64,000 nucleotides of DNA from Flavobacteriaceae bacterium (lineage in GTDB: Bacteria > Bacteroidota > Bacteroidia > Flavobacteriales > Flavobacteriaceae). Of this stretch, positions 17,482 to 48,168 are shown in pieces. Position 1 is the stretch's first letter. Each line of letters opens with the position of its first letter. The position numbers and the translations under genes were made by a program. Location: NCBI GenBank assembly GCA_016649715.1, contig JAENXC010000010.1, forward strand, positions 1 to 64,000, in the 5' to 3' direction. A model generated the notes under the pieces. The model searched no databases and was not told the DNA's origin. It saw nothing but the letters and a program-made list of their open reading frames with translations.

Positions 17482-17542
17482 CTCTTTTCTTTTCTCTTTT
17501 CTTTTTTCTTTCTTCTATCTTCTTTCCTCTTTCAACTATCTT
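17482..17542. repeat. Heptad array, CTTTCTT type
   Basis: From 17494, seven units of 7 bp follow in register, all beginning CT and mostly matching CTnTCnT, ending at the DUF1015 stop codon. Before them, CTCTTTT at 17482 is followed by a 5-nt unit. The array fills nearly the whole gap between yggS and the DUF1015 gene. Confidence 0.8.
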
Positions 17543-18780
17543 CAGAATTCATAAACAGTAACACCACTCCTCAGTTTCGGCTCAATGTAAGTGCTCTTCG
17601 GAGGCATTTTCAAACCTTCGTCTGCAATCATTTTCATCTCTTTAGTAGTTACGGGCAGCAAGCCGAAACCCACAGCAAAAGTTCCCGAATCGACCACTGT
17701 TTTCACGTATGCCAAATCTTTTTTCCCGTGTGAATATTCTATTCGCTGGTCGTTTCGCAAATCTTCAATGCCTAAAAGGGGTTTTAAAATGGTTACGTAC
17801 AAAATCTGCGTGTCCAGTGCATCGAGAGCGTTGTTGATTTCATATTTACTTTTCCGAAGATATAGCGAATAAAACTCGCCATCCAAATACATGCTGAAAT
17901 GATGCAGTTTTGAGGGTTTGTAATAATCTGTTCTTCTATTTTCAATTCTAAAATATTCATCCAGTTTAATTAAAAACTCCTCCTTTTTCATTCCGTTAAG
18001 GTCTTTTACCAAACGGTTGAATTCATAAATCTTCAAATCGCTTTCAGGAATTAAATAACTCATAAAATAATTATAAGCTTCTTCGCCCGTGTGATTTGGA
18101 TTTTCTTCCTTTAAATCTTTCGCCAACAAATAGGAGGAAGCCGAGCGGTGGTGGCCATCGGCAATATAAAGTGCAGGCATTTCACTGTAAATTTTCTGAA
18201 TTTTTTCAAGAAGTACCTCGTCGTCAATGTTCCAAACATAATGGGTGTCTCGATAGGTGGTCGTAAACTCATATTCGGGACGGCTTTGCATTACCTGTTC
18301 TATAATCGCTTCCAATTCGTCATTGTCGGGATAGGTGAGGAGCACAGCCTCGGCGTTGAAACCTACTGTTTTTAAATATTCCTTGAAAATAATTTCGCGG
18401 AATTCCAAAGTGTCTTCGTGTTTTTTTATGACGTCGTCCGCATAATCCTGCACACTCGCCGCACCAACGATACCGTTGAAAACAAGCCTATCTCGGTTCA
18501 CTATTTTATAAATGTAGAACGAAGGTTTTTTATCCTGAATAAAGATTCCGTCCTCCTTAAATTCCTGGTAGCGATTCTTCACCAAACCATAGCGCTCTTC
18601 GCCCGAAATTTCTTTTTGATATTTATAACCAGGGTTCACAATGTGCAAAAATGAAAACGGATTGTCCCGCAAACGCGATTCTACCTGCATTGCCGTATAG
18701 CTGTCATACGAACGTGCAGCGAGCAAACTCACTTTGTCCCGCGTAGGGCGGACGGCTTTAAAGGGGATTATTTTGGCCAT
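17542..18780 (-). CDS. DUF1015 family protein
   Basis: 412 residues, usual length of the DUF1015 family. Recognisable landmarks are the N-terminal IIPFKAVRPTRDKV segment, the PSFYIYKI stretch, and the ADGHHRSASSYLLAKD motif near the middle, which gives a conserved His-rich site. The family is widespread in bacteria and uncharacterised; a hydrolase- or kinase-like role has been proposed from its motifs only. It lies in a minus-strand run between hbd and yggS. The stop codon overlaps the end of the heptad array. Confidence 0.9.
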   Translation of the reverse strand: MAKIIPFKAVRPTRDKVSLLAARSYDSYTAMQVESRLRDNPFSFLHIVNPGYKYQKEISGEERYGLVKNRYQEFKEDGIFIQDKKPSFYIYKIVNRDRLVFNGIVGAASVQDYADDVIKKHEDTLEFREIIFKEYLKTVGFNAEAVLLTYPDNDELEAIIEQVMQSRPEYEFTTTYRDTHYVWNIDDEVLLEKIQKIYSEMPALYIADGHHRSASSYLLAKDLKEENPNHTGEEAYNYFMSYLIPESDLKIYEFNRLVKDLNGMKKEEFLIKLDEYFRIENRRTDYYKPSKLHHFSMYLDGEFYSLYLRKSKYEINNALDALDTQILYVTILKPLLGIEDLRNDQRIEYSHGKKDLAYVKTVVDSGTFAVGFGLLPVTTKEMKMIADEGLKMPPKSTYIEPKLRSGVTVYEF

Positions 18781-18786
18781 TTATTT

Positions 18787-18815
18787 AGTGTTCAGTTGGC
18801 AGTTGCAGTTGGCAG
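18787..18815. repeat. Imperfect heptad run AGTTGGC
   Basis: AGTTGGC, AGTTGC, AGTTGGC, AGTTCAT: 7-bp units with one shortened to 6 bp, in the gap between hbd and the DUF1015 start. Confidence 0.55.
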
Positions 18816-18827
18816 TTCATCAATAAA

Positions 18828-19724
18828 TTATTTTGAAAACATTTTCGAAACAACCTCCGCCTTTCGGTTTTCACTGTAATCATAAAACCCTTCACCACTT
18901 TTAGCGCCCAGCTTTCCGGCCATTACCATATTTACCAGCAATGGGCAGGGAGCGTATTTTGGGTTTTTGAAACCTTCGTACATCACTTTCAAAATGGAAA
19001 GACAAACGTCCAACCCAATAAAATCTGCCAAAGCCAAGGGTCCCATTGGGTGGGCCATCCCCAGCATCATTACGGTGTCAATTTCTTTAACGCCCGCAAC
19101 GCCGTTGTAAAGTGTTTCAACAGCTTCGTTTATCATCGGCATCAAAATGCGGTTTGCCACAAATCCGGGGTAGTCATTAACTTCCACGGGAACTTTGTTC
19201 AGCTTTTTTGAAAGCCCTTCCACCGTTTTGAAAGTCTCTTCGCTGGTGCTGTAGCCTTTAATTATTTCTACCAATTTCATAATCGGCACCGGATTCATAA
19301 AGTGCATCCCGATAACTTTTTCCGGACGTGATGTTACCGAAGCAATCTGCGTGATGGAAATAGAGGAAGTATTGCTCGCCAAAATGGTATCAGCTTCGCA
19401 GAATTTATCCAGATCTCGAAAAATTTTTAGTTTTAAATCTAAGTTTTCTGTTGCGGCTTCAACGACTAAATCGGCAGTTTTCACGCCCGTTTCGATGCTT
19501 GTAAAAGTTGAAATGTTATCCAAAGTTCTCTTTTTATCGACTTCCGGAATGCTTTCTTTTGCAACCATTCTGTCCAAATTTTTGGTGATGGTCGCCATTC
19601 CTTTGTCAAGCGATGCTTGCGAAACATCAATCAATTGTACTTTGTAATCAAATTGCGCAAAAGTGTGGGCAATGCCATTTCCCATCGTTCCTGCGCCTAT
19701 TACTGCTATATTCTTCATTTTCAA
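18828..19724 (-). CDS. hbd: 3-hydroxybutyryl-CoA dehydrogenase
   Basis: 298 residues. The NAD-binding Rossmann motif is GAGTMGNGIA at about 10-19. Then come the catalytic signatures VVEAATE and SNTSSISIT, the HFMNPVPIMKLVEII motif holding the catalytic His, and the C-terminal domain with DYPGFVANRILMPMINEA and DTVMMLGMAHPMGPLALAD. It reduces acetoacetyl-CoA to 3-hydroxybutyryl-CoA or runs the reverse step in fatty-acid degradation. The start could also be the second Met, two codons in. It lies between the oxidoreductase and DUF1015 genes on the same strand. Confidence 0.95.
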   Translation of the reverse strand: MKMKNIAVIGAGTMGNGIAHTFAQFDYKVQLIDVSQASLDKGMATITKNLDRMVAKESIPEVDKKRTLDNISTFTSIETGVKTADLVVEAATENLDLKLKIFRDLDKFCEADTILASNTSSISITQIASVTSRPEKVIGMHFMNPVPIMKLVEIIKGYSTSEETFKTVEGLSKKLNKVPVEVNDYPGFVANRILMPMINEAVETLYNGVAGVKEIDTVMMLGMAHPMGPLALADFIGLDVCLSILKVMYEGFKNPKYAPCPLLVNMVMAGKLGAKSGEGFYDYSENRKAEVVSKMFSK

Positions 19725-19751
19725 TTTATGATTTTATATTTTTTTTCTTTT

Positions 19752-19800
19752 GTCATCCGTCATCCGTCATCCGTCATCCGACTTCCAACTTCCAACTTTT
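19752..19800. repeat. Heptad array, GTCATCC type
   Basis: Four exact GTCATCC units, then GACTTCC, AACTTCC and AACTTTT in the same 7-bp register. It lies between hbd and the oxidoreductase gene and ends at the oxidoreductase stop codon. Confidence 0.85.
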
Positions 19801-20767
19801 ATATTTTTTTAAAATTCTCAATAATCATCATCGCGATGCGCAAAGCTTCTGTGCCTTGCCGCAACGAGACTTCTGGCGTTCTATCTGCTTTTATGGCTTC
19901 GTAAAAACTTTCCAGTTCATCGAGGATGGCGTTGTTGTTTTCAACCTTTGGGTTTTCGAAATAGATTTGCTTTTTAATTCCTTCCGCATTGGTCAACACC
20001 ATTGCGAAATCGTCCAGTTCTTTGGGAGCGTCCTTCATTTTTACTACTTCACATTGCTTTTCAAGGAAATCCACTGAAATGTATGCATCGCGCTGAAAGA
20101 AACGTGCCTTTCGCATTTTTTTAAGGGAAATTCTACTCGCGGTTAAATTCGCCACACAACCGTTTTCAAACTCAATACGGGCATTAGCAATGTCCGGCGT
20201 TTCGCTGATAACCGAAACCCCGCTTGCGCTTACGGCTTTTACAGGACTCTTTACAACACTCAAAATAGCGTCGATATCGTGAATCATCAAATCCAAAACT
20301 ACTGAAACATCCGTCCCGCGTGGATTGAATTCCGCCAGTCGGTGGGTTTCAATAAACATAGGGTTGTGTATTTTGTCCTTAATGGCCATAAATGCAGGGT
20401 TGAAGCGTTCCACTTGGCCCACTTGTCCACGAACTTTTTTTTCCTTTGCCAAATCGCGGATCTGCTCAGCTTGTGCAACGGTTTGTGTTATTGGTTTTTC
20501 AATAAAGAGGTGTTTTCCAGCTTTTATAACTTTTTCGGCACAATCAAAATGTGTACTGGTGGGCGTTACCACTACCACCATATCGCTGGCGGCAATGAGG
20601 CTTTCCATGGATGGAAAACTTTTGTAGCCGAATTCAGATTCAATTTGTTCCGAAGCTTCTTTGCTGGCGTCGAAGAAACCCACAAGCTCGTATTTTGTGG
20701 ATTGTTGCAGCAATTTTAAATGTATTTTTCCCAAGTGACCCGCACCCAGAACTCCCGCTTTTAGCAT
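19799..20767 (-). CDS. Gfo/Idh/MocA family oxidoreductase
   Basis: 322 residues. The N-terminal Rossmann domain has GAGHLGKIH (about 8-16), and the family's EKP motif is present (LFIEKPIT, near 96). The C-terminal alpha/beta domain carries the substrate region with a DLMIHDIDAIL motif (D and H conserved). Such enzymes use NAD(P) to oxidise or reduce sugars or related compounds; the substrate cannot be named. First gene of the minus-strand run that leads through hbd and yggS to miaA. A TACATTTG box (20784-20791) lies 16 nt before its ATG. Confidence 0.9.
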   Translation of the reverse strand: MLKAGVLGAGHLGKIHLKLLQQSTKYELVGFFDASKEASEQIESEFGYKSFPSMESLIAASDMVVVVTPTSTHFDCAEKVIKAGKHLFIEKPITQTVAQAEQIRDLAKEKKVRGQVGQVERFNPAFMAIKDKIHNPMFIETHRLAEFNPRGTDVSVVLDLMIHDIDAILSVVKSPVKAVSASGVSVISETPDIANARIEFENGCVANLTASRISLKKMRKARFFQRDAYISVDFLEKQCEVVKMKDAPKELDDFAMVLTNAEGIKKQIYFENPKVENNNAILDELESFYEAIKADRTPEVSLRQGTEALRIAMMIIENFKKI

Positions 20768-20783
20768 TGGCGTGTGTTTTTCA

Positions 20784-20791
20784 CAAATGTA
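20784..20791 (-). promoter_or_regulatory. -7 box TACATTTG for the oxidoreductase-hbd run
   Basis: Exact TAnnTTTG on the minus strand, 16 nt before the ATG. The upstream element is not a clear TTG (TTA at the 19-nt distance). Confidence 0.5.
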
Positions 20792-20918
20792 CGGGTTTCG
20801 GGGGAAAGTTTAAAAGTTTATAGGTTTAGAGTTGATAAGTATTGACACATATTTATCGAGTAGTAAATTGTGCTTTGAAAACAAAATTGGTTACTTTGTA
20901 CATCAAAAGTTAGATGCC

Positions 20919-30411: not shown

Positions 30412-30502
30412 CAATTAACAATTAACAATTAACAATTAACAGTTAGCAATAATCAATTTCATTCTTTAATTCAACCTGCAACCTGCAACAATCAACCATT
30501 AA
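30412..30502. repeat. Heptad array, CAATTAA type (13 units)
   Basis: Four exact CAATTAA units, then CAGTTAG, CAATAAT, CAATTTC, three diverged units, two CCTGCAA, CAATCAA and CCATTAA, all in one 7-bp register. It fills the gap between convergent genes and runs through the stop codon of the WbqC-family gene. Confidence 0.85.
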
Positions 30503-31118
30503 CAAAAGATTGTCTTTCCAAATAACCCAATGCATTCGGACCTTCATTAAAAAGTAAATCCAACACCGAAAGATTCGGCAAAAACGGATGGTTTGCGCCG
30601 TGGACTTGCGTATAAACTTCTGCCTGAAAATTAGAAGTTCTCTTCGCATCAATCAAAAGGCGGAGGTCTGCAATTTCAGGATTTGTTTCATAGGAAGTGG
30701 TTTTTGAAACTTCAACCTCAATTCCTATCAACTCACATAACAAATCGAATATTTTTAGGTTGTACTCCGTCAAATTTCCAACGGGTTCCGTGAACAAATG
30801 TTCCAAATCGTCTTCGTAATATTCAAAAAAAGGTGAAGTGCGATACGCGCTCTGCAAGCTTTTCCAATGCTGCTCCTGCCACGGAAAATCATTTTCAACA
30901 ACCACATTTTTTGTTTTTTGTCGCTTGCTGGTTCGGTTGTGTTTTATGGGAATGTTCAAAAGCAGCTTTCCGTTGCTGTGCGCAATAAAAGCTCGGTTGC
31001 GGTAGGTCTGTTTTTGGTAATTGTCTTCAACTTCAAAAACAACTTTTTCAGCCTGGGCCACAGCCGTCATTTGTTCAACAGACGGAAAATAGGAGGGAAG
31101 AAGGAGGATTGTTTTCAT
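30492..31118 (-). CDS. WbqC-family protein
   Basis: 208 residues from MKTILLLPSYFPSVEQM. Family landmarks are LLPSYFPS at the start, YQKQTYRNRAFIAHSNGKLLLNIPI, and the WQEQHWKSLQSAYRTSPFFEYYEDD segment. WbqC proteins are found near O-antigen and lipopolysaccharide genes; the function is not established. The frame is open a further 138 codons upstream, but that region is the heptad array read as protein, so I reject the extension. A TATTTTTG box (31136-31143) lies 17 nt before this ATG. Confidence 0.88.
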   Translation of the reverse strand: MKTILLLPSYFPSVEQMTAVAQAEKVVFEVEDNYQKQTYRNRAFIAHSNGKLLLNIPIKHNRTSKRQKTKNVVVENDFPWQEQHWKSLQSAYRTSPFFEYYEDDLEHLFTEPVGNLTEYNLKIFDLLCELIGIEVEVSKTTSYETNPEIADLRLLIDAKRTSNFQAEVYTQVHGANHPFLPNLSVLDLLFNEGPNALGYLERQSFVNG

Positions 31119-31135
31119 TTGAAAATTAAAGGCTT

Positions 31136-31143
31136 CAAAAATA
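31136..31143 (-). promoter_or_regulatory. -7 box TATTTTTG for the WbqC gene
   Basis: Exact TAnnTTTG on the minus strand, 17 nt before the chosen start; it supports that start. Confidence 0.45.
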
Positions 31144-31153
31144 GGAAAGAAAA

Positions 31154-31293
31154 GAACAAAGAACAAAGAACCAAGAACCAAGAACCAAAAGTCAAGAGCA
31201 AAGAATAAAATGTGAGAATTTTCAAAACTTTGAACCTGAAACCTGAAACCTGAAACCTGTAACGTGGAAGTTGAAACAAGAAACGTGAAACCT
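31154..31293. repeat. Heptad array, GAAACCT/GAACCAA type (20 units in register)
   Basis: Starting at 31154, 140 bp can be cut into 20 consecutive 7-bp units. Most match GAA[AC]C-N-[AT]: two GAACAAA, three GAACCAA, then AAGTCAA, GAGCAAA, GAATAAA. Three diverged units follow, then TGAACCT, three GAAACCT, GTAACGT, GGAAGTT, GAAACAA, GAAACGT and GAAACCT. It lies between the divergent WbqC and udk genes, just before the udk -7 box. Confidence 0.92.
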
Positions 31294-31300
31294 TTTTCGC

Positions 31301-31308
31301 TACCTTTG
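31301..31308 (+). promoter_or_regulatory. -7 box TACCTTTG for the udk-divIC-mutAB operon
   Basis: Exact TAnnTTTG, 17 nt before the udk ATG and 7 nt after the end of the heptad array. The array occupies the place where the -33 element would be. Confidence 0.55.
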
Positions 31309-31325
31309 CGTAAACCAAAAAAACT

Positions 31326-31946
31326 ATGCTCATAATTGGCATTGCTGGTGGTACCGGCAGCGGAAAAACAACTGTGGTTGATCAAATAGTTGCGGAACTT
31401 CCGGAAGATGAAGTCTGCGTCATTTCGCAGGATTCCTATTATCACGACAACAGCCATCTGTCTTTTGAGGAACGCACAAAAATCAATTTTGATCATCCCA
31501 AAGCCATCGATTTTGATTTGTTGGTAAGCCATTTAAAGGAACTTCGGAAGGGAAATTCTTTTGAACAACCGGTTTATTCCTTCGTGGAGCACAATAGAAC
31601 TGGAGAAACAATTACTACCTTCCCAAAAAAGGTTATTATTGTTGAAGGAATTTTGATCTTGGCGCATCCAGACGTTCGCGAAATGTTCGACATAAAAATA
31701 TTCGTGCACGCCGACAGCGACGAGCGGTTGATACGCAGGTTGAAACGTGACATTGCTACCCGCGGCCGCGATTTGGAAGAAGTTTTAAACCGCTACCAAA
31801 CCACGCTGAAGCCGATGCACCAACAATTCATAGAACCGACCAAGGAATTTGCGGACATCATTATTCCCACAAATAAACACAACACCGTGGCCGTTGACCT
31901 AATAAGAAATATTATTCACCAAAAATTAAGCTATACCGAATCGTGA
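31326..31946 (+). CDS. udk: Uridine kinase
   Basis: 206 residues, the normal Udk length. Walker A GGTGSGKTT is at about 7-15, then QDSYYHD, the NFDHPKAIDFDLL motif, and the RRLKRDIATRGRD lid with catalytic arginines. It phosphorylates uridine and cytidine with ATP or GTP in pyrimidine salvage. First gene of a tightly overlapping operon: its TGA overlaps the GTG of divIC by 4 nt. Confidence 0.96.
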   Translation: MLIIGIAGGTGSGKTTVVDQIVAELPEDEVCVISQDSYYHDNSHLSFEERTKINFDHPKAIDFDLLVSHLKELRKGNSFEQPVYSFVEHNRTGETITTFPKKVIIVEGILILAHPDVREMFDIKIFVHADSDERLIRRLKRDIATRGRDLEEVLNRYQTTLKPMHQQFIEPTKEFADIIIPTNKHNTVAVDLIRNIIHQKLSYTES

Positions 31947-32275: not shown

Positions 32276-33669
32276 GCGATTTTTTGTTTGATGGGTTTGA
32301 TGAAGTTTCCGCAAAACAATGGAAGCAGAAAATACAGTACGACCTTAAAGGCGCCGATTATAACGAAACTTTGGTTTGGCAAAGTCCCGAAGGCTTAAAC
32401 GTAAAACCGTTCTATCACCAAGACGATTTTAAAGAAGATTTTCAGCCCATTCCCGGTCAGCCACAATCTTGGGCAATCGCACAGCAAGTTTTTATAGATG
32501 ATGAAAAAATAGCGAATAATATTGCGCTGGATGCTTTGGAGAGAGGAGCAGAGGCAATAATTTTTACTGCCGCCGAAGATTTTGACCCGAGAATCGTTTT
32601 TAAGGATTTTCCTTTTGAAACAGCTACAATTTACTTCAACCTAACATTCCTTTCCGAAGCTTTTTACACTAAACTCATCAAATTCTTTTCGCACTTGCCT
32701 GCCAATTCGGTAGGGAAAAATGCTACCGTTTTTTATAACATAGATATAATAGGAAACCTCACCCGCACGGGCAACTGGTTTCACAACCTAAAGAAAGACC
32801 ACGAAATTCTGGAAAACATTTTTCAGAAATATGCTTCTGAAAATCTCCTTTCAATTGATGCAACCTTATACCAAAACGCAGGTGCAAACACCGTCCAGCA
32901 ATTGGCATACGCCTTGGCCCATGCCAACGAATATTTGAATCACGAATTTGTCACCTCGAGCGCAGTCGAGAGGTCGTCGTTAACCTTCAACCTCGCTATC
33001 GGCTCCAACTACTTTTTCGAAATAGCAAAAATCCGCGCCCTGCGTAAACTTTACGCAACTCTGGCAAAAGAGTACAACTTAAAAGAAACCTGCCACATAA
33101 TTGCAACACCGTCAAAACGCGACAAAACCCTTTACGATTTCAACGTAAACCTGCTTCGAAGCACCACAGAATGTATGAGTGCAGTTTTGGGCGGCGCAGA
33201 CACAGTTTGCAATTTGTCTTACGATGCCCTTTACCACAAAAGCAACGAGTTCGGCGAACGCATTTCACGAAATCAATTACTTATCTTAAAGTACGAGAGT
33301 TATTTTGACGCTGTAAGCAATCCTTCAGACGGGACTTATTATATTGAAAACGTAACAGATGAACTAGCCGAAAAAGCCCTTCAACTTTTTAAGGAAATAG
33401 AAAAAGGCGGCGGTTTCCTCAAACAATTAAAAGAGGGAATCATTCAGAAAAAAATAAAGGAAAGTGCTGAAAAGGAACAACAACTCTTCGATAGCGGTAA
33501 ACTGAAATTGTTGGGAACCAACTATCACCCCAATAAAAAAGATAGAATGAAAGACGATTTGGAACTTTTCCCATTCGTGAAAAACAATCCAGTCAAAACC
33601 ATTATCGCTCCAATTGTTGAAAAACGCTTGGCAGAAAAAGTTGAACAGGAAAGAATAAGCAATGAGTAG
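32272..33669 (+). CDS. mutA: Methylmalonyl-CoA mutase small (beta) subunit
   Basis: 465 residues. It is a TIM-barrel-type MCM fold that lacks a B12-binding domain and keeps the family segments [39 protein letters not shown], and [19 protein letters not shown]. It pairs with the catalytic large subunit encoded downstream. Around residues 227-235 (TSSAVERSS) the frame contains a CCTCGAGCGCAGTCGAGAGG palindrome, a variant of the yggS element, in a loop before the conserved LAIGSNYF. The gene overlaps mutB by 8 nt. Confidence 0.93.
32950..32974. repeat. Palindromic element in mutA
   Basis: GTCACCTCGAGCGCAGTCGA then GAGGT. It shares GTCACC and GAGCGCAGTCGA with the elements at 16918 and 48124. 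In frame; encodes about VTSSAVER. Confidence 0.7.
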
Positions 33670-35884
33670 AAAAGATTTACATCATATTAGCCTAAAAAGG
33701 TCCGAAGACGGAAGAAGGAAGACGGAAGTTTCTGCGGGTCACTCTGAGCTTGTCAAAGGGCAACCAGAAACCAGAAACCAGAAACACTCGTCTTCCGAAG
33801 CTTTTTCAGCGAAGGAGGATGAAACTTTTTTGACGGCCGAAGAAATCCCCCTAAAAAAACGATACAATGCTGAAGACACAGCAAACCTCAAACACCTAAA
33901 TTTCGTAGCTGGAATCGCCCCGTACCTCCGCGGCCCATACTCCACAATGTACGTCCGCCGTCCGTGGACTATTCGCCAATATGCAGGATTTTCAACGTCA
34001 GAAGATAGCAACGCCTTTTATAGAAGAAATCTAGCCGCAGGTCAAAAAGGACTTTCCGTAGCCTTCGATCTCGCCACACACCGAGGTTATGACAGCGACC
34101 ACCTAAGAGTGGAAGGCGATGTTGGCAAAGCAGGCGTAGCTATAGACAGCGTAGAGGATATGAAAATCCTTTTCGACCAAATACCCTTGGACAAGATGAG
34201 CGTTTCTATGACGATGAACGGCGCCGTGCTACCAATTATGGCGTTCTATATTGTTGCTGCGAAAGAGCAGGGCGTTTCCCCAAAAGAGTTGGAGGGAACC
34301 ATCCAAAACGATATTCTAAAGGAATTCATGGTGCGCAACACTTACATCTATCCGCCCAAGGAATCAATGAAGATTGTTAGCGATATTTTTGAATACTCTT
34401 CCAAGAATATGCCAAAGTTCAACAGCATCTCCATCTCCGGCTACCATATGCAGGAAGCGGGAGCTACGGCAGATATTGAACTGGCTTATACTTTGGCAGA
34501 CGGTCTCGAATACATCCGCACCGGAATAAAAGCGGGAATGGACATAGACACTTTTGCGCCACGCCTCTCCTTCTTTTGGGGTATCGGGATGAATCACTTT
34601 ATGGAAATCGCGAAGTTACGCGCCGCCAGAATGCTGTGGGCAAAGATTGTTAAACAGTTCAATCCCAAAGACGAAAAATCCCTTGCCTTGCGTACCCACT
34701 GCCAAACCAGCGGATGGAGCCTTACTGAGCAAGACCCATTTAACAACGTTGCAAGAACCGTTATTGAAGCAACCGCAGCAGTTTTCGGCGGAACGCAATC
34801 GCTACATACAAATGCTTTGGATGAAGCCATCGCGCTACCAACCGATTTCTCCGCACGTATTGCAAGAAACACCCAGATTTTCCTTCAAACCGAAACCCAG
34901 ATCACCAAAACGGTCGATCCTTGGGCTGGAAGTTATTACTTAGAAAACCTTACCGATGAGATCGCCAACAAAGCTTGGGCATTAATAGAAGAAGTAGAAG
35001 AATTGGGCGGAATGACCAAAGCCATTGAGGCAGGCATCCCCAAACTTCGCATAGAGGAAGCTTCAGCAAGAAAGCAGGCGCGCATTGATAGCGGGCAGGA
35101 CATCATCGTAGGCGTAAACAAATACCGTCTTGCAAAAGAAGACCCACTGCAAATCTTGGATGTGGACAACCAAATGGTCCGTACTTCGCAGATTGAACGC
35201 CTAAACCACATAAAAGCCACCCGCGACAACAAAAAGGTAGCAAAGAGCCTAGCAGATATTACCGAATGCGCAAAGACAGGTCGCGGAAATTTACTAGCTT
35301 TAGCCGTAGAAGCTGCCCGACACAGGGCGACTTTGGGCGAAATCTCTACCGCGATGGAAAAGGAATTCGGCAGGTATAAAGCACAAATTAGATCTTTTAG
35401 CGGCGTGTATAGTAAAGAAATAAAGAAAGACGAAAGTTTTATAAAGGCAAGGCAAATGGCAGACCAGTTCGCAGAGTTGGAAGGCCGCCGTCCGCGTATT
35501 ATGATTGCCAAAATGGGGCAGGACGGGCACGACCGCGGCGCCAAGGTGGTTGCCACTGGCTATGCCGATGTAGGTTTTGATGTGGACATAGGTCCCCTCT
35601 TCCAAACGCCCGCAGAAGCCGCCAAACAAGCAGTGGAAAACGACGTACATATCCTCGGCGTTTCCTCCCTCGCCGCAGGCCACAAAACCCTTGTGCCACA
35701 GGTTATAGAGGCTCTAAAAAAATACGGCCGCCAAGATATTATGGTCATCGTGGGCGGCGTAATCCCGCACCAAGATTACCAATACCTTTTTGATGCCGGC
35801 GCTGTTGCGGTTTATGGCCCAGGTACTCGTATTAGTGATGCTGCTATTGAGATGTTGGGGATTTTGATTGAGGGGGTGGAGTGA
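33662..35884 (+). CDS. mutB: Methylmalonyl-CoA mutase large subunit
   Basis: 740 residues. The TIM barrel starts at about residue 75 ([21 protein letters not shown], substrate and AdoCbl contacts). The C-terminal B12-binding domain has the D-x-H-x-x-G motif ([11 protein letters not shown], about 619-629). With the small subunit it interconverts methylmalonyl-CoA and succinyl-CoA. The N-terminus (about residues 15-42) is unusual: 84 bp of heptad repeats surrounding a palindromic element encode [20 protein letters not shown] and a PETRNQK segment. Because 84 is divisible by 3, the frame survives. Last gene of the udk operon; no terminator was recognised. Confidence 0.95.
33704..33787. repeat. 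Composite repeat inside mutB: heptads, palindromic element, heptads
   Basis: GAAGACG, GAAGAAG, GAAGACG, GAAGTTT; then 28 bp containing GTCACTCTGAGCTTGTCAAA (33738-33757, then GGG); then GCAACCA, GAAACCA, GAAACCA, GAAACAC. The 7-bp register holds across all twelve units. Confidence 0.85.
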
Positions 35885-38342: not shown

Positions 38343-38377
38343 CTACCGTCTACCTACTAAAGACTACCGACTATCTG
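38343..38377. repeat. Heptad array, CTACCGA type (5 units)
   Basis: CTACCGT, CTACCTA, CTAAAGA, CTACCGA, CTATCTG in register. The last unit covers the rlmH stop codon. Confidence 0.75.
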
Positions 38378-38844
38378 TGGTGATACGGTTCATTCCGAAG
38401 AATCGTAAACCCCCTATAAAGCTGTTCAATAAAAAATAGCCGAACCATTTGGTGCGAAAAGGTCATTGAAGAAAGTGAAACCTTCCCATTAGCGCGTGCA
38501 TAAACAGCCTCACTAAACCCGTATGGACCACCAATCACGAAGATGAGGTTCTTCAAACCGCTGTTCATCTTCTTCTGAAGAAACTCCGCAAACCCTTCTG
38601 AAGTAAAGGTTTTTCCTTTTTCATCAAGCAGGATTAAAACATCAGCAGTAGAAGTTCGCTTTAATATTTCTTCCCCCTCCGCTTGCTTTTGAAGTTGTTC
38701 AGACAAGTTTCTGGCATTTTTCACATCCGGAATCACCTCGATTTCAAACGAAATATAAAACCCCAACCGTTTGGTGTAGTCATCCATCAAGGTTTGCAGT
38801 TGGTTGTTGTCGGTTTTGCCAATGGCCAGTAATGTAATTTTCAT
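38371..38844 (-). CDS. rlmH: 23S rRNA (pseudouridine1915-N3)-methyltransferase
   Basis: 157 residues, full length for RlmH. SPOUT fold markers are LIFVIGGPYGFSEAVY (SAM-binding knot), SLSSMTFSHQMVRLFFIEQLYR and the invariant C-terminal PYHH before the final Arg. It methylates pseudouridine 1915 in helix 69 of 23S rRNA. A TACTTTTG box lies exactly 4 nt before the ATG, so the mRNA may be leaderless. The 3' end overlaps a heptad array. Confidence 0.97.
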   Translation of the reverse strand: MKITLLAIGKTDNNQLQTLMDDYTKRLGFYISFEIEVIPDVKNARNLSEQLQKQAEGEEILKRTSTADVLILLDEKGKTFTSEGFAEFLQKKMNSGLKNLIFVIGGPYGFSEAVYARANGKVSLSSMTFSHQMVRLFFIEQLYRGFTILRNEPYHHR

Positions 38845-38881: not shown

Positions 38882-38912
38882 CTGCCTACTGAAACTGAAT
38901 ACTGCCAACTCT
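38882..38912. repeat. Imperfect heptad run CTGCCTA/CTGAATA
   Basis: CTGCCTA, CTGAAA (6 nt), CTGAATA, CTGCCAA, CTC: between the divergent rlmH and nadC genes. Confidence 0.6.
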
Positions 38913-40714: not shown

Positions 40715-40777
40715 ACGTTAAACCTAATTTTTAAATTATGAAATGCCCACTAACTAATTATAAACAAACAGAAGATG

Positions 40778-40785
40778 TATATTTG
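40778..40785 (+). promoter_or_regulatory. -7 box TATATTTG for the DUF2147 gene
   Basis: Exact TAnnTTTG, 38 nt before the ATG; it overlaps two alternative inverted repeats (40742-40799). Confidence 0.5.
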
Positions 40786-40823
40786 GGCATTCCATCTTCT
40801 TAACTCTCAAATATTATATACAG

Positions 40824-41362: not shown

Positions 41363-41405
41363 CTCATAGTTAATAACTCATAACCCAAAACTCATAACTC
41401 AAAAA
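41363..41405. repeat. Heptad array, CTCATAA type, ending at the priA start codon
   Basis: CTCATAG, TTAATAA, CTCATAA, CCCAAAA, CTCATAA, CTCAAAA in register, then one A and the GTG start of priA. Confidence 0.85.
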
Positions 41406-43877
41406 GTGTATTTCATTGACGTTATTCTGCCAATTCCGTTAAAACAATCTTTCACGTACAGCGTGAACAAGGACGAAGCAGCCTTCCTAAAACCAGGGAT
41501 GCGCGTGGCTATTCCTTTTGGAAAATCCAAAGTTTACACTGGTATTGTCTATCAAGTACACGACCAACCGCCCGTGGGCTATGAAACCAAATCCATCGAT
41601 CATATTTTGGATGAGGAACCTATCATCACAACCTTTCAATTGAAACATTGGGAATGGCTAGCCCATTATTATATGTGTTCTTTGGGCGAAGTGATAAAAG
41701 CAGCATTGCCCAGCGCATTTTTGTTGGAAAGTGAAACCATGATAAAACTTTCCTGCCTGCCGGCAGGCACGGCTTCGGAAAAAAATTATGATGAAAATTT
41801 GCTGTCCGATGAAGAGTTTTTGGTTTTTGAAGCCCTGCAGCACCAATCCTCACTTCATATAAATGATGTGCGGGCCATCCTCGATAAAAAGAACGTGGTT
41901 TCTGTAATTCAGAAGTTAATTGAAAAAGGAATAGTTACCGTGGAGGAAACGGTTTACGAACAATACACCCCAAAACTGAAACGCTACATAAAGCTCACGC
42001 AGAAATACACTTCGGAAGAAAAGTTGCGCGAACTTTTGGACACCTTGAGCCGAGCGCCAAAACAGCGCGATGTGCTGATGAACCTTTTTATGCTGAACAG
42101 CCAGACCAAAAAACCGATTAGTTCCACAGCACTTCAAAAAAAGAGTGGAGCCTCTTCAGCCACTTTGAAATCTCTTTTAGATAAAGATATTTTGGAAGAA
42201 TATTTTATACAGCACGACCGGGTGGAATTTTCTGGCGAATCTTCATCGGAAATAAAAACCTTGAACGAAGCACAGACAAAGGCATATGAAGAAATAAAAA
42301 CTTCCTTTGCAAGCAAGGATGTGGTCCTGCTCCACGGAGTTACTTCCAGCGGAAAAACCGAAATCTACGTCAGGCTTATTGAAAAAATGATTGCTTCGGG
42401 AAAACAGGTTTTGTATATGCTTCCCGAAATAGCTTTAACAACCCAACTCATCAGTCGTCTTCAAAAATATTTTGGCGAAAAGATTTCTGTTTACCATTCC
42501 AAATTTTCTGTGAACGAACGCGTTGAGGTTTGGAACAACGTGCTTGCCGAAAAGCCGAAAGCGCAAATAGTTATTGGCGCACGTTCTTCATTATTTCTTC
42601 CTTTTAAAAATCTGGGGTTCATTATTGTCGATGAAGAACACGAACCCAGTTTTAAACAATTCAGTCCCGCCCCGCGCTACAACGCTCGCGATAGCGCTGT
42701 TGTTTTGGCGAATCTTCACAAAGCAAAACTTTTAATGGGTTCCGCAACGCCTTCGCTGGAAAGTTACCACAACGCAAAAACGGATAAGTTCGGTTTGGTA
42801 ACCTTGAAAAAGCGCTTCGGAAATGTGATGATGCCGGATATTGAATTGGTGGATATAAAAGAGAAGAACCGCAAGAAACAGATGACGGGCCATTTCAGTG
42901 ACAGGCTTTTGGAAGAAATGCGCGAGGTTTTAAAAAATAGCGAACAGATAATCCTTTTTCAGAATAGACGAGGTTTTTCGCCCGTTGTGGAATGTACCAC
43001 TTGCGGGGTTTCGCCTCAATGCCCAAACTGTGATGTTAGCTTGACGTTCCATCAACACAAAAACCAACTGCGCTGCCATTACTGCGGCTATCATGTGGCT
43101 ATGATGCAAAGCTGTATTGCCTGTGGAAGCCAAACTTTGGATACTAAAGGTTTCGGAACAGAACAGATAGAAACGGAATTGAAATCGTTGTTTCCAAACC
43201 ACAAAATAGCCCGGATGGATCAAGACACAACGAAGGGAAAACATTCCTATTCAAAATTGATAGAGGCTTTGGAAAATGAGGAAATAGATATATTGGTTGG
43301 CACGCAAATGCTCGCCAAAGGTTTGGATTTTAGAAATATCAGTCTCGTGGGTGTGATGAACGCGGACAACCTCCTAAACTTTCCGGATTTTAGGGCGCAC
43401 GAACGCAGTTTTCAATTGCTACTGCAAGTATCGGGCAGGGCAGGGCGCACCCAAAAACGCGGTAAGGTTTTGATACAGACTTACAATCCGTTCCATCAAA
43501 TTTTGAAGCAGGTAAGTGTGAATGATTATGAATCGATGTATAAAGAGCAACTTGAGGAAAGGTACAATTATAAATATCCGCCTTTTTTCAGAACGATAAA
43601 AATTACTTTTAAGGACAAAAATCTGACGCATGTCCAAAGAGCATCGGCTTGGTTTGGCCTCGCACTGGAAAGACAATTCAAGGAAAATGTTTTGGGTCCG
43701 GAACCACCGCCGGTTGGGAGGATTAAAAATAAATACATCATAAACCTTCTCGTCAAAATTCCAAAGAAGCAATCTTTGGAAAAGACAAAGAAATACATAG
43801 AAAATGTACAACGCAGTTTCAATTCCATCAAGGAATTTTCAAGCGTTCGCGTTACAATTGATGTAGATAATTATTAG
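41406..43877 (+). CDS. priA: Primosomal protein N' (replication restart helicase)
   Basis: 823 residues from GTG (VYFIDVILPIPLKQSFTY, the usual PriA N-terminus). The 3'-DNA-binding domain comes first, then SF2 helicase motifs: Walker A GVTSSGKTE, Walker B VDEEHEPSF (DEEH), and MGSATPSLES. Eight zinc-binding cysteines lie in CTTCGVSPQCPNC and CHYCGYH...CIACGS. A CLPAG stretch near residues 117-121 is encoded by a 16-bp perfect palindrome, probably an inserted repeat in a linker. It reloads the replisome at stalled forks. The end overlaps the convergent LytTR gene by 4 nt. Confidence 0.96.
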   Translation: MYFIDVILPIPLKQSFTYSVNKDEAAFLKPGMRVAIPFGKSKVYTGIVYQVHDQPPVGYETKSIDHILDEEPIITTFQLKHWEWLAHYYMCSLGEVIKAALPSAFLLESETMIKLSCLPAGTASEKNYDENLLSDEEFLVFEALQHQSSLHINDVRAILDKKNVVSVIQKLIEKGIVTVEETVYEQYTPKLKRYIKLTQKYTSEEKLRELLDTLSRAPKQRDVLMNLFMLNSQTKKPISSTALQKKSGASSATLKSLLDKDILEEYFIQHDRVEFSGESSSEIKTLNEAQTKAYEEIKTSFASKDVVLLHGVTSSGKTEIYVRLIEKMIASGKQVLYMLPEIALTTQLISRLQKYFGEKISVYHSKFSVNERVEVWNNVLAEKPKAQIVIGARSSLFLPFKNLGFIIVDEEHEPSFKQFSPAPRYNARDSAVVLANLHKAKLLMGSATPSLESYHNAKTDKFGLVTLKKRFGNVMMPDIELVDIKEKNRKKQMTGHFSDRLLEEMREVLKNSEQIILFQNRRGFSPVVECTTCGVSPQCPNCDVSLTFHQHKNQLRCHYCGYHVAMMQSCIACGSQTLDTKGFGTEQIETELKSLFPNHKIARMDQDTTKGKHSYSKLIEALENEEIDILVGTQMLAKGLDFRNISLVGVMNADNLLNFPDFRAHERSFQLLLQVSGRAGRTQKRGKVLIQTYNPFHQILKQVSVNDYESMYKEQLEERYNYKYPPFFRTIKITFKDKNLTHVQRASAWFGLALERQFKENVLGPEPPPVGRIKNKYIINLLVKIPKKQSLEKTKKYIENVQRSFNSIKEFSSVRVTIDVDNY
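41754..41769. repeat. Perfect 16-bp palindrome TGCCTGCCGGCAGGCA inside priA
   Basis: Resembles the element near 63754. In frame, in a variable linker of PriA. Confidence 0.7.
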
Positions 43878-44611: not shown

Positions 44612-44716
44612 TAATATGCAAATAATCGATGAAATGCAACTTTTTTTGATTTTAATCGAAAAAAACGTACACTTCGTCTAAAATCCTAATCTTTGAATAC
44701 TAATCAGAATTTAGGT

Positions 44717-44746: not shown

Positions 44747-44800
44747 CACCCTCTTTGGCAGAAAGCCAAGGTTTTAATCATTAATTTTAATAGATTTTTT

Positions 44801-45139
44801 ATGAATCATTACGAAACTGTTTTCATCTTAAATCCCGTTTTATCTGATGATCAGATAAAGGAAACAGTAAAGAAATACGAAGATCTTCTTGTTTCTAAAG
44901 GTGCTAAGATGATATCCAAAGAAAATTGGGGCTTGAAAAAACTTGCTTACCCAATCCAGAACAAAAAAAGTGGGTTTTACCACCTTTTTGAATTCACCGT
45001 TGAAGGTGAAGCAGTTCACGAACTGGAAATTGAATTTAAAAGGGACGAGCGTTTTATGCGTTTCCTTACTGTGAGCCTTGACAAACACGCGATTGCTTGG
45101 GCAGAAAAAAGAAGAAACCGCGATAAAAAATCAGCATAA
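44801..45139 (+). CDS. rpsF: 30S ribosomal protein S6
   Basis: 112 residues from MNHYETVFILNPVLSDDQIKE. The start is chosen because this is the family's N-terminus and because an in-frame upstream extension (to a TTG at 44693) would include the promoter. The ferredoxin-like fold markers WGLKKLAYPI and GFYHLFEF are present. It binds S18 on the small subunit. First gene of the rpsF-rpsR-rplI operon. Confidence 0.97.
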   Translation: MNHYETVFILNPVLSDDQIKETVKKYEDLLVSKGAKMISKENWGLKKLAYPIQNKKSGFYHLFEFTVEGEAVHELEIEFKRDERFMRFLTVSLDKHAIAWAEKRRNRDKKSA

Positions 45140-45142
45140 GTT

Positions 45143-45439
45143 ATGGCAACATTACAACAACAAGCAAAAGGAAAAAAAGACGGAGAGATCAGGTATCTTA
45201 CCCCGCTTAACATAGACACCAACAAAACAAAAAAATACTGTCGTTTCAAAAGATCCGGTATTAAGTATGTTGACTATAAAGACGCAGATTTCTTATTGAA
45301 ATTTGTGAACGAACAAGGGAAAATTCTTCCCAGAAGGCTTACCGGAACTTCATTGAAGTATCAACGCAAAGTGGCCGTTGCCGTTAAAAGAGCGCGCCAT
45401 TTGGCACTTATGCCTTACGTAGCCGATTTATTAAAATAA
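45143..45439 (+). CDS. rpsR: 30S ribosomal protein S18
   Basis: 98 residues. The conserved core is [51 protein letters not shown]. The N-terminus is extended by ~25 basic residues, as is usual in Bacteroidota. It heterodimerises with S6. It starts 3 nt after rpsF. Confidence 0.97.
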
Positions 45440-45455
45440 AAAACCAGAGAGCAAT

Positions 45456-45980
45456 ATGGAACTTATATTAAAAAAAGACGTAGAAAATCTGGGATTTGCA
45501 GATGATCTTGTAAGTGTGAAAAACGGTTACGGAAGAAACTTTTTGATTCCACAAGGGCACGCAGTATTAGCTACCCCATCGGCCAAAAAAGTATTGGCAG
45601 AAACTATGAAACAACGCGCTTTCAAAGAAAAGAAAGTGGTAGACGAAGCCAAAACACAGGCTGAAAAACTGAACGGACTGGAAATAAAAATCACTGCCAA
45701 AACTGGTGAAGGTGATAAATTGTTCGGTTCTGTTACAAACGGAGATCTTGCCGAAGCCCTTGAAAAAGAAGGCGTTTCCATAGATAAAAAATACATCAAT
45801 GTTGCCGGGGGCGCCGTTAAGCGTACTGGTCAATATGATGCTACCATCCGTTTCCACAGAGACGTTGTGAGCACCTTTACTTTTGAAGTAGTTGCCGAAC
45901 CTAAACCGGAAGCTAAATCTAAATCTAAATCGGTAGCTAAATCAGAGGATAAAACCGAAGATAACACCGAAGCTAAATAG
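45456..45980 (+). CDS. rplI: 50S ribosomal protein L9 with charged tail
   Basis: 174 residues. The N-domain (LILKKDVENLGFADDLVSVKNGYGRNFLIPQG) and C-domain (KLFGSVTNGDLAEAL, DKKYINV) are both complete by about residue 148. A further ~25 residues rich in Lys, Ser, Glu and Asp follow, encoded partly by 6-bp AAATCT-like repeats. L9 binds 23S rRNA and helps keep frame. Last gene of the operon, followed by a terminator. Confidence 0.96.
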   Translation: MELILKKDVENLGFADDLVSVKNGYGRNFLIPQGHAVLATPSAKKVLAETMKQRAFKEKKVVDEAKTQAEKLNGLEIKITAKTGEGDKLFGSVTNGDLAEALEKEGVSIDKKYINVAGGAVKRTGQYDATIRFHRDVVSTFTFEVVAEPKPEAKSKSKSVAKSEDKTEDNTEAK

Positions 45981-46004
45981 AAAACACGATTAATTGTTAT
46001 AAAG

Positions 46005-46032
46005 CCTTTCTCGTTCTCGAGAAAGGTTTTTT
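46005..46032 (+). terminator. Rho-independent terminator of the ribosomal protein operon
   Basis: Perfect 9-bp stem (CCTTTCTCG / CGAGAAAGG), TTCT loop, then T runs. Confidence 0.93.
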
Positions 46033-46103
46033 GTTTTTTTGAAATTTTTTCACGTAGAAAAGAGAATAAAGAATTCTTGATAAAAATCAACTGTTATCGT
46101 TTA

Positions 46104-46143
46104 ACAGACAACAGACAACAGACAACTGAGAACCGAGAACTGA
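46104..46143. repeat. Heptad array, ACAGACA type, ending at an ATG
   Basis: Three exact ACAGACA units, then ACTGAGA, ACCGAGA and ACTGA joined directly to the ATG of the DUF6495 gene. Confidence 0.85.
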
Positions 46144-46617
46144 ATGAAGTACGCCAGATTAACAAAAGAACAATTTGAAGAACTGCAACAGGAATTCATA
46201 AATTTCCTTGCCACACAGTCCATTACCGCTGAAGAATGGAAAAAGTTAAAAAACGAGAAACCCGAAGTTGCCGAACAGGAATTAGACATTTTCAGCGATT
46301 TAATTTGGGAAGGAGTTTTGATTAAAGTGAACTATTTGGAACACATCTCGCCCAAACAGTTGATGCTTTTTCATATTACGGAAGCATTTATGGAACTGAT
46401 TGCTATAAAAATTGAGGATGAAAATATAGACATTACCAATGAATACGGCTACAAATGGCTTCAGCAGAACTTGCATAATGACGCAGTAAGCCTTTACACT
46501 TCAACCAAAGCCATAAAAGATGACCGCAATAAGGATATTTTTGTGTTGATACAACAGGGCTCGGTCATCACAAAAGGAGAACTTTATAATTATTTTGGGG
46601 AATTGCTAAAGGAGTAA
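46144..46617 (+). CDS. DUF6495 family protein
   Basis: 157 residues, soluble. Landmarks MKYARLTKEQFEELQQEFINFLA, ITAEEWKKLK, DIFSDLIWEGVLIKVNYLEHISP and the C-terminal GELYNYFGELL match an uncharacterised protein family conserved in flavobacteria. No catalytic motif is seen. The start codon is preceded directly by a heptad array, so the array would be part of the 5' leader or promoter region. Confidence 0.85.
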   Translation: MKYARLTKEQFEELQQEFINFLATQSITAEEWKKLKNEKPEVAEQELDIFSDLIWEGVLIKVNYLEHISPKQLMLFHITEAFMELIAIKIEDENIDITNEYGYKWLQQNLHNDAVSLYTSTKAIKDDRNKDIFVLIQQGSVITKGELYNYFGELLKE

Positions 46618-46623
46618 ATTTCA

Positions 46624-46641
46624 TCCCGATAACTATCGGGA
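46624..46641. repeat. Palindrome TCCCGATAACTATCGGGA
   Basis: 8-bp perfect arms with a 2-nt centre, just after the DUF6495 stop. Probably a dispersed element of the same kind as other short palindromes here. Confidence 0.65.
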
Positions 46642-46661
46642 CCAAGAAAACAAATTCCAAA

Positions 46662-46736
46662 CAAATTCCAAAAACCAAAACTCCAAATTCCTAGACTATG
46701 TTTTGGAATTTGGAGTTTTGTGATTTGGAATTTCCC
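46662..46736. repeat. Long inverted repeat flanked by CAAATTC-type heptads
   Basis: A perfect 16-bp inverted repeat (46676-46691 with 46705-46720; arms start CAAAACTCC) with a 13-nt loop. The left side is made of CAAATTC, CAAAAAC, CAAAACT, CCAAATT heptads and the right side is the inverse. It lies between convergent genes and may also act as a bidirectional terminator. Confidence 0.75.
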
Positions 46737-46740
46737 CTTC

Positions 46741-47982
46741 CTATTCGTACCTCAAACTTTCAATGGGGTCCAACCCCGCTGCTTTTGATGCAGGATAAGA
46801 ACCAGCAATCACAGCAACTATGAAAGTGATTATGGTTGCCCAAATCATTGCTGCCCAGGGCAAAGAAAAATCAAATTCAAAGATTTTTGCAAAAGCATAG
46901 CCGGTTAATATTCCAAGAATAATTCCTAAGACACTACCAAACTGGCCAATAACAATGGTTTCCATAAAAAATTGAGTGGAAATCGTGGAACGTTTTGCAC
47001 CCATTGCTTTTCGGACACCAATTTCTTGAGTCCGCTCGGTTACGGAAACCAGCATAATATTCATCAACGCGATGGAAGAGCCAAGAATGGTAATAATACT
47101 GATGATCCAAGCGGCAATTTCCAGATATTTCGTAATGGAGGCAATCCGGTTAATAAGGTCGTCACTGCGCTCTATTCCAAAGTTATTCGCTTCCACGGGA
47201 TTTAGCCCGCGAATGTTTCTGAAAGTAATGATGGCTTCATCCTGTGCAGCTTCCATCAGCTGTTTGTCGTCCACTTTTACGCTAATGTTGTAGTTTATGT
47301 TGGGCTGCGTATAAATTCCACGTGCCACTTGCACCGGGATCAAAACCTTTAGATCTTGATTGTTCCCAAATGTGGAGCCTTTAGATTCCAACAAACCAAT
47401 AATCTTGAACTTTACTCCGCGAATACTAATAGTCTTGTTGATTGGGTCATCGTTTTCAAAGAGGTTTTTCTGAAAATCGGAACCTATCAAACAGACTTTA
47501 TTGTTGTTTTGGATGTCGAAAAATGTAAAATTCCTACCCTTGTCTATTTCGGTTCCAGTGTTTTCCAAATAGTTTTCGTTTACGCCATAAACTTGCACCT
47601 CGGGATCGGTTTTTTCGGAGCCAAATTTCACTTCGGCTACAGAAGTTCCTTGAAACGAAAGCGAAGTTTTAGTGGAGGGAAATTCATATTTGTCCAAAAA
47701 CTCGCGGACATTGTTATAACTGATTATTGGATTTATTTTTTCGCGTTCACCGCTGCGGTTCGTCTGCACGGTAAATTCATATTGCTGAATGTTGAATGTA
47801 TTTGCGCCCATAGATGCAAAATTTCCGGAAATGGTGGTCTCCAAAGCCTTTACCGCACTCAAAATACCTACCAAAGCCCAAATTCCAATCCCGATGATGA
47901 CGATAGTTAGAATGGTGCGCAGTAGTTGACTTTTAATAGAATCCAGCGCAATGCGCACATTTTCCCAAAACAGTGAAAACAT
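46741..47982 (-). CDS. MacB-type ABC transporter permease
   Basis: 413 residues from MFSLFWENVRIALDSIKSQ. TM1 is near 20-40 (ILTIVIIGIGIWALVGIL), then a MacB periplasmic core domain, then three C-terminal helices with the FtsX signature (NIMLVSVTERTQEIGVRKAMGA). Such permeases work in mechanotransmission, lipoprotein release or export with a separate ATPase, which is not encoded next to this gene. The frame opens 11 codons earlier (48015), so a longer start is possible. Confidence 0.9.
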   Translation of the reverse strand: MFSLFWENVRIALDSIKSQLLRTILTIVIIGIGIWALVGILSAVKALETTISGNFASMGANTFNIQQYEFTVQTNRSGEREKINPIISYNNVREFLDKYEFPSTKTSLSFQGTSVAEVKFGSEKTDPEVQVYGVNENYLENTGTEIDKGRNFTFFDIQNNNKVCLIGSDFQKNLFENDDPINKTISIRGVKFKIIGLLESKGSTFGNNQDLKVLIPVQVARGIYTQPNINYNISVKVDDKQLMEAAQDEAIITFRNIRGLNPVEANNFGIERSDDLINRIASITKYLEIAAWIISIITILGSSIALMNIMLVSVTERTQEIGVRKAMGAKRSTISTQFFMETIVIGQFGSVLGIILGILTGYAFAKIFEFDFSLPWAAMIWATIITFIVAVIAGSYPASKAAGLDPIESLRYE

Positions 47983-48062
47983 ATTTATTGATTGTGTTTT
48001 TTCATTAGACAGCAAAAGTTGGATAAAGTTACTATTATTTAAGATATTTGCGCTGTTAGGAA

Positions 48063-48168
48063 TTCAAAGTTCAAAATTCAAGATTACTGAATCTTTCCAT
48101 TCTGAACTTTGAATTTTAAAAATGTCACCCTGAGCGCAGTCGAAGGGTTAAATCTTGAATATTTAATT
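48063..48168. repeat. Heptad-like arrays flanking a palindromic element upstream of hisS
   Basis: TTCAAAG, TTCAAAA, TTCAAGA at 48063-48083; a GAACTTTGAA copy at 48104-48113; the element GTCACCCTGAGCGCAGTCGA (48124-48143, then AGGG); then CTTGAAT and ATTTAAT units. Same element and flanking decamer as in yggS. Confidence 0.75.

Follow-up and report, generated by a model that had tools for sequence, protein, structure and literature searches.

Period-7 tandem arrays at gene boundaries of Aequorivita: probable heptanucleotide minisatellites with a polar family of YTGA units

Cyanobacterial short tandemly repeated repetitive (STRR) heptamers are tandem 7-mers of several sequences. Heptanucleotide repeats have also been mentioned for Calothrix. 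An over-representation of heptamers in bacteria is likewise already in print, and a survey of prokaryotic heptanucleotide simple sequence repeats (SSRs) lists 7n3, a unit repeated at least three times in succession, as over-represented in the Bacteroidetes (median category 0.75, 34 genera), 6n3 and 8n3 being normal (Huang and Mrazek 2014, PMC4060949). The preference for seven in many bacteria is treated in print as an open question; a proposal attributed to Mrazek 2007 invokes the contact length of the polymerase. Aequorivita sublithincola and Gramella forsetii have been reported to carry TAACTGA arrays next to arrays of other heptamers, and one reverse TAACTGA set lies just after a stop codon in F. 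litoralis (MacGregor 2015, PMC4679880). Moreover, GGGAATC and GGGGA(C/T)T heptamers have been described for Xanthomonas and Nostoc (Rehm et al. 2015, PMC4692102). Here, we describe period-7 arrays in a stretch of 64,000 nucleotides (the window; positions 1-64000 of contig C70 of a genome of 3.40 Mb in 71 contigs) and in related genomes. The window belongs to Aequorivita (Flavobacteriaceae); its priA protein is 92% identical to that of an Aequorivita metagenome-assembled genome (MAG) and 91% identical to that of A. antarctica. Heptamer excess, that of the Bacteroidetes included, and TAACTGA arrays in an Aequorivita species are thus known already, and the statement in a preliminary description of this DNA that no account of such repeats and no mechanism were known for flavobacteria has to be withdrawn.

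We regard the arrays as heptanucleotide minisatellites that change by local duplication in 7-bp steps and that carry a YTGA-linked polar layer at gene boundaries, a reading to which we give a probability of about 0.7. Slipped-strand, or other very local, tandem duplication would add and remove whole units in 7-bp steps; the units would then diverge by point mutation with the register kept, and each species would re-homogenise its arrays separately. The arrays are rare in coding DNA, although a loose linker can absorb them, and are mostly found in intergenic DNA, often at gene ends. In addition, there is a sequence-linked layer, in which the YTGA units (chiefly ACTGANN, also GAAACYT and, more weakly, TTGAANN) stand beside genes mostly in one orientation.

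The strict period of 7, with units drifting by point changes in register, was claimed for the window and is found genome-wide and lineage-wide. A first sample of the source genome consisted of the window and of contigs that were all chosen through GAAACNT matches. Its intergenic self-match was 0.323 at lag 7, 0.306 at lag 14 and 0.305 at lag 21, compared with 0.294 at lags 6 and 8 and a median near 0.284 (the z-scores of this test assume independence), and coding DNA had no peak at lag 7. A second sample (L157-L176), partly from the same contigs, was picked blind to repeats and away from GAAACNT matches; it comprised 37,463 bp of intergenic and 363,904 bp of coding DNA. The intergenic part contained 18 arrays of period 7, two of period 6, one of period 8 and three each of periods 14 and 21, so that the neighbouring periods have no equal excess. 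Only five period-7 arrays were found in the coding part, and the arrays are therefore mostly intergenic (18 in 37 kb versus 5 in 364 kb). If these 400 kb are typical, extrapolation from the 18 arrays gives about 150 arrays per genome.

The excess over neighbouring unit lengths extends to Aequorivita as a whole and to other Bacteroidota. Seventeen other Aequorivita loci yielded 20 arrays of period 7, none of period 6 and five of period 8. In stretches of four other Aequorivita genomes, 6, 6, 5 and 8 period-7 arrays were found versus 1, 1, 0 and 0 of period 6 and none of period 8; these genomes form two close species pairs with syntenic stretches, and arrays are therefore shared within a pair. 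Pooled Bacteroidota loci outside the genus contained 27 arrays of period 7, none of period 6 and two of period 8, the next most frequent periods being 14 and 16 with five each. This pool also held locus L033, which is really Aequorivita and contributed no period-7 array, and two genomes of the same order in it were devoid of period-7 arrays. In 14 kb of intergenic DNA from E. coli K-12, a small control, there were no arrays of any period, and simulated sequence gave almost none. Furthermore, short exact repeats outside arrays numbered 210 at lag 7, 97 at lag 6 and 139 at lag 8, with a mean of 87 over lags 12-40. Arrays also lie close to gene ends: of 51 arrays between tandem genes of the source genome, 27 had a start at most 15 nt away, compared with 12.1 expected, and 14 had a stop at most 5 nt away, compared with 4.7. 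For other Aequorivita, 6 of 16 arrays lay within 5 nt of a stop (1.4 expected), and the start side was not clear at 15 nt (4 of 16; 3.5 expected).

The units had been described as unrelated, a view that does not survive comparison across loci. The 80 arrays of the source genome gave 107 class assignments that fell into 58 cyclic classes, compared with 94.1 ± 3.3 in random draws, and many units carry a YTGA core. The largest cyclic class, with six loci, is within the random range (up to seven), and AAACCTG, one of two classes of this size, is inflated because contigs had been chosen by AAACCTG. Many units belong to the families ACTGANN, TTGAANN and GAAACYT, all of which share YTGA. Of 431 ACTGANN units, 357 had CC, AC, AT, TT or CT as the dinucleotide NN, in which G was rare. 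Three perfect ACTGANN units in a row were detected in 25 of 28 Aequorivita genomes versus 9 of 28 for the reversed control pattern; the source genome had 158 such matches versus 42 for the control, overlapping matches being counted repeatedly. Among 120 Flavobacteriaceae genomes, 32 had ACTGANN triples and 14 the control. GAAACYT triples occurred in 18 of the 28 Aequorivita genomes and TTGAANN triples in 25; for the latter, several genomes had the control as often or more often. Heptamer arrays are thus built on many motifs, and only numbers and orientation distinguish YTGA. The window has no ACTGANN triple. The TAACTGA unit of MacGregor is ACTGANN with NN = TA; none of the nine main arrays of the window consists of it, and its triple was found as three overlapping matches at two places in the source genome and in 8 of 28 Aequorivita genomes. 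One genome of the Flavobacteriaceae, G305, had 74 matches to the reversed control, which has an AGTCA core, and none to ACTGANN; these repeats are another lineage-specific heptamer family.

The ACTGANN arrays are polar: the ACTGA strand runs 5' to 3' into the gene boundary, i.e. the units are in sense orientation before starts and in antisense orientation after stops. Gene ends were taken from a simple script that calls the longest open reading frame (ORF), which leaves start positions uncertain. In the set that raised the idea, 41 of 46 arrays were used, and 35 of them had their nearer boundary on the 3' side as read along the ACTGA strand. A second set, 40 regions taken from the ACTGANN genome listing before their genes were seen, gave 34 of 41 (of 43). 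Of the stops in this set, 21 of 26 on the 3' side and 2 of 23 on the 5' one were at most 20 nt away (p 4e-7, Fisher test); starts were less clear (6 of 15 versus 2 of 18). With both sets combined and homologous loci merged, 54 of 63 loci followed the polarity, and the boundary was at most 20 nt away for 34 of 41 stops and 12 of 22 starts on the 3' side compared with 4 of 33 stops and 1 of 30 starts on the 5' side. Among 36 further loci, 19 had a centred and distinct array, and 16 of the 18 usable ones conformed, among them 14 of the 16 from outside the genus; some of these loci share an orthologous gene. As a null, arrays were inserted at random positions of genuine intergenic DNA and genes were called anew. 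The nearer boundary was then on the 3' side in only 204 of 377 (54%), with 22% of 3' stops, 17% of 3' starts, 20% of 5' stops and 11% of 5' starts within 20 nt; 23 further planted arrays were swallowed as coding.

The polarity was absent from the preliminary description, and the window itself hardly displays it. Nor is it inherited from single motifs as far as stops are concerned, since single ACTGA and TCAGT motifs numbered 46 and 57 there; near starts, they were biased (45 versus 20). GAAACYT arrays, of which 13 of 14 could be used, all conformed; almost all of these cases concern starts, as just two next-gene stops were available. TTGAANN arrays were weaker: 25 of 29 were used, and 18 of these conformed (p 0.04), their stops giving 6 of 7 on the 3' side versus 0 of 13 on the 5' side; the TTGAANN array of the window at 48061 breaks the rule, the boundary being 27 nt away on its 5' side and 47 nt away on its 3' side. 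For arrays without YTGA, direction was judged by stop codons and base skew only. The strand facing the gene had the excess of stop codons in 4 versus 3 cases at starts and 5 versus 10 at stops, and a general stop-codon barrier is therefore unlikely. Near starts, with all families pooled, C exceeded G on the sense strand in 37 of 47 arrays and G exceeded C in 9. A T-tract as a fixed 5' end was also considered: TTTTT occurred within 20 nt 5' of 16 of 72 ACTGA arrays (14 of 44 on the stop side, 2 of 28 on the start side) against a background of 11%, which is only a mild enrichment. The motif TAnnTTTG, considered as an antisense promoter, was found upstream of stop-side arrays just 4 versus 2 and 1 versus 1 times. 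By eye, units such as AAATTCC, AAGAACC and AAAGAGA stand after stops in sense orientation in Aequorivita, unlike the YTGA families.

These features can be set against the described systems. The prokaryotic heptanucleotide SSRs share the excess of tandem 7-bp units; unlike the arrays tabulated in that survey, those described here are mostly imperfect, sort into related families and, for ACTGANN, are polar towards genes (PMC4060949). The TAACTGA repeats have the genus among their hosts, are intergenic, stand forward before starts and have other heptamers alongside (PMC4679880). Forward orientation just upstream of starts was found for the ACTGANN family, though not for the window. However, MacGregor singles out TAACTGA and finds related heptamers rare in BOGUAY, whereas ACTGA is combined here with many G-poor dinucleotides, and the reversed orientation after stops, one example there, is the rule here (PMC4679880). 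The heptamers of Rehm and co-workers are similar in period, in mostly intergenic location, in having one dominant unit family per lineage and in varying in length between species (PMC4692102). They differ in that a G-tract is part of every unit; ACTGANN units are G-poor and devoid of G-tracts, and quadruplexes are therefore not expected of them; the window arrays likewise have no G-tracts. The open-licence literature gave no account of the polarity rule at stops or of an ACTGANN or YTGA family, and the polarity towards gene boundaries is, as far as this literature was searched, new.

How arrays change was followed in two close species pairs with intergenic substitution rates of 0.069 and 0.046; as one genome per species was used, length changes are seen between species only. 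Differences of at least 5 bp with an identity of at least 0.7 to the neighbouring sequence were called tandem-type. Their lengths were 5, 7, 8, 14, 21 and 36 bp in one pair and 7, 14, 28 and 28 bp in the other; seven of the ten are divisible by 7, and a single region accounts for three of the seven. Whole-unit length change is thus suggested by few events, and repeat patterns of 14 and 21 bp in arrays indicate that several units were duplicated together. At one and the same boundary, some species lack an array and others have arrays of distinct yet related units. Ahead of the DUF6495 gene, arrays were present in 5 of 19 rows, the source genome included. Its units there are AACAGAC/AACTGAG, and four other species have other AAYNNAN units, namely AACTGAT/AACAGAT, AATAGAT/AACGGAT, AACCCAC/AACCGAA and AACCGAC/AACAGAC. 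Upstream of hisS, for which the anchors are uncertain in some species, there are six perfect AGTTATG units in A. sinensis, three in A. xiaoshiensis, whose array is one unit shorter, and eight AGGTATG units in A. todarodis. Whole-unit change together with turnover fits a pattern of slippage, point mutation and lineage-wise turnover, and slipped-strand or similar local duplication is the most likely origin of the 7-bp arrays.

Several results weigh against the minisatellite reading. All indels together (71 and 81 in the two pairs) had no peak at 7 bp (2 and 1). The 7-bp bias is confined to arrays, so that such a bias at their birth is not demonstrated. Within ACTGA arrays, no gradient of unit age was found (28 versus 30 of 70), and polar growth inside arrays is hence unsupported. 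Furthermore, ordinary slippage would not favour a period of 7 so sharply over periods of 6 and 8, and neutral slippage does not predict the polarity. Decayed units far into the 5' flank were also sought; the 1.4-1.6 of 5 core bases matching there are close to the 1.34 given by base composition alone.

The polarity may stem either from selection via a factor recognising YTGA heptads or from directional birth or growth of arrays. It is possible, although we would not bet on it, that YTGA heptads are functional polar boundary elements kept by selection in one orientation at gene ends, with a protein or RNA that recognises YTGA at 7-nt intervals on single-stranded RNA or DNA; ahead of starts it might, for instance, act in the initiation of translation, and downstream of stops it might counter antisense transcription. 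The extreme orientation and closeness of the merged loci, far from the planted null, and the polarity outside the genus speak for such elements, and MacGregor (2015, PMC4679880) argued that forward TAACTGA ahead of starts has a role in translation. On the other hand, arrays appear and vanish at one boundary among close species and many species have none, a single action covering both starts and stops is not evident, the stop-codon barrier found no support, and TTGAANN is weak, with a window array that deviates. An unlikely but serious alternative is that directional seeding or extension leaves the 3' end of the YTGA strand at the first sequence fixed by selection, which is the gene. This would give one rule for starts and stops without any function, and it suits the mild T-run enrichment 5' of the arrays and the fact that arrays are drawn to the boundary rather than merely tolerated there (34 of 41 stops versus about 22% planted). 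However, the missing age gradient disagrees with it, and because single motifs are biased near starts only, ready seeds could help only at starts. More doubtful still is the proposal that YTGA heptads of Flavobacteriaceae are polar boundary elements read or made by a factor moving in 7-nt steps with the YTGA strand leading; if true, this factor would account for both the strict period and the orientation. Chance, gene-calling bias or an assembly artefact is hardly credible. Longest-ORF gene ends and uncertain starts might suggest it; yet simulations gave almost no arrays, planted arrays were hardly polar, the one-contig genome G007 also has period-7 arrays, and the effect is strongest at stops, which longest-ORF calling leaves unmoved.

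Aequorivita includes species that are named and isolated and that carry many natural arrays, as well as species pairs that are 95-96% alike. The polarity is a sharp new constraint for any account of heptamer repeats. If it is functional, it would represent an unrecognised signal at gene ends; the group of Aequorivita makes little use of Shine-Dalgarno sequences. If it is mutational, it would be a directional clue to the origin of such repeats.

Tandem Repeats Finder gave many period-7 arrays for the window. Arrays of the window and their flanking genes are as follows:

16804-17481 (- strand): Ala_racemase_N gene
17488..17533 (- strand): period-7 array of GAAAGAG/GAAAGAA-like sense units, between the Ala_racemase_N gene start and the DUF1015 gene stop
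17542-18780 (- strand): DUF1015 gene
19752..19798 (+ strand): (GTCATCC)4 grading into AACTTCC, period 7, upstream of the 3HCDH gene 18828-19724 (- strand)
19799-20767 (- strand): GFO_IDH_MocA gene, its stop abutted by the array 19752..19798
30412..30502 (+ strand): CAATTAA and CAACCTG units in a common register, between two convergent gene ends
31154..31293 (+ strand): about 20 in-register units, GAACAAA/GAACCAA then GAAACCT, between wbqC (- strand) and a uridine-kinase-like gene (+ strand, 31326)
33704..33787 (+ strand): GAAGACG and AACCAGA heptamers within the methylmalonyl-CoA mutase gene (33662-35884), where they encode part of the N-terminal linker ahead of the Pfam match
38343..38377 (+ strand): weak run of heptamers by the stop codon of a SPOUT methyltransferase (RlmH-like) gene, 38371-38844 (- strand)
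41363..41405 (+ strand): AACTCAT/AACCCAA array directly upstream of priA (41406-43877, + strand)
46103..46140 (+ strand): AACAGAC three times, AACTGAG and AACCGAG, between the rplI-side hairpin and the DUF6495 gene start (46144, + strand)
46651..46733 (+ strand): CAAATTC-type and TTTGGAA-type units between convergent genes
48061..48085 (- strand): TTCAAAG/TTCAAAA array, i.e. TTGAANN on the - strand, between a divergent macB-like permease gene and hisS

The lag-7 scores of 12 stretches named in the preliminary description were compared with 1000 first-order shuffles of each stretch (uncorrected p values). Eight of the nine main arrays beat their shuffles, with p ~0.001 for 17494-17542, 19752-19800, 30412-30502, 31154-31293, 33704-33787, 41363-41405 and 46104-46143 and p = 0.007 for 48063-48083; 38343-38377 reached only p = 0.053. 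None of the three weaker runs was significant at lag 7: lags 13 and 6 scored higher at 18787 (lag-7 p 0.107), lag 11 scored higher at 46662 (p 0.084), and the run at 38882 had p 0.318. Seven of the main arrays are situated wholly or mostly between called genes. The other two are in called ORFs. One of them, 31154-31293, is probably intergenic, because the likely wbqC start is the ATG at 31118, just ahead of the Pfam match; it was excluded from the polarity count, as the longest ORF covers it, and its GAAACCT strand heads to the uridine-kinase-like gene. The other, 33704-33787, is coding. The final 11 bp of the array 30412..30502 overlap the end of the gene 30492-31532 (- strand), and a terminator-like hairpin, seen by eye, follows rplI ahead of the array 46103..46140. 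Judged by eye, the AAATTCC-type and TTTGGAA-type units at 46651..46733 resemble an inverted repeat, of which A. todarodis and A. soesokkakensis show the like, and are perhaps a two-way terminator built of heptamers. The N-terminal mutB linker (window 33704-33800 and orthologues) absorbs heptamer arrays as coding sequence; in 11 other species, the methylmalonyl-CoA mutase linkers vary in length and sequence, and some species have a coding SVVEG-like repeat in the mutB linker.

The window also contains a dispersed element of about 95 bp at 40728-40822, of which it has a second copy. At least 21 of the 28 Aequorivita genomes have copies, with 71-89% identity. For 14 copies, the next boundary was a start in 10 of 13 cases, nine of them at most 30 nt away. 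By eye, AATGCCC...GGGCATT forms a conserved stem in the element, GAAGATG...CATCTTC may be a pair interleaved with it, and insertions vary between copies; in the window, no Rfam match reached the gathering score. In A. antarctica, LH_M31 and NORP10, this element occupies the place that the heptamer array has in other species before the DUF6495 gene.

Finally, 3 of 10 contig ends examined in the source genome lie inside heptamer arrays of 100-160 bp, and such arrays probably break the assembly:

L077, 8479-8639 (contig C61): array at contig end
L084, 1-122 (contig C42): array at contig end
L085, 1-106 (contig C25): array at contig end

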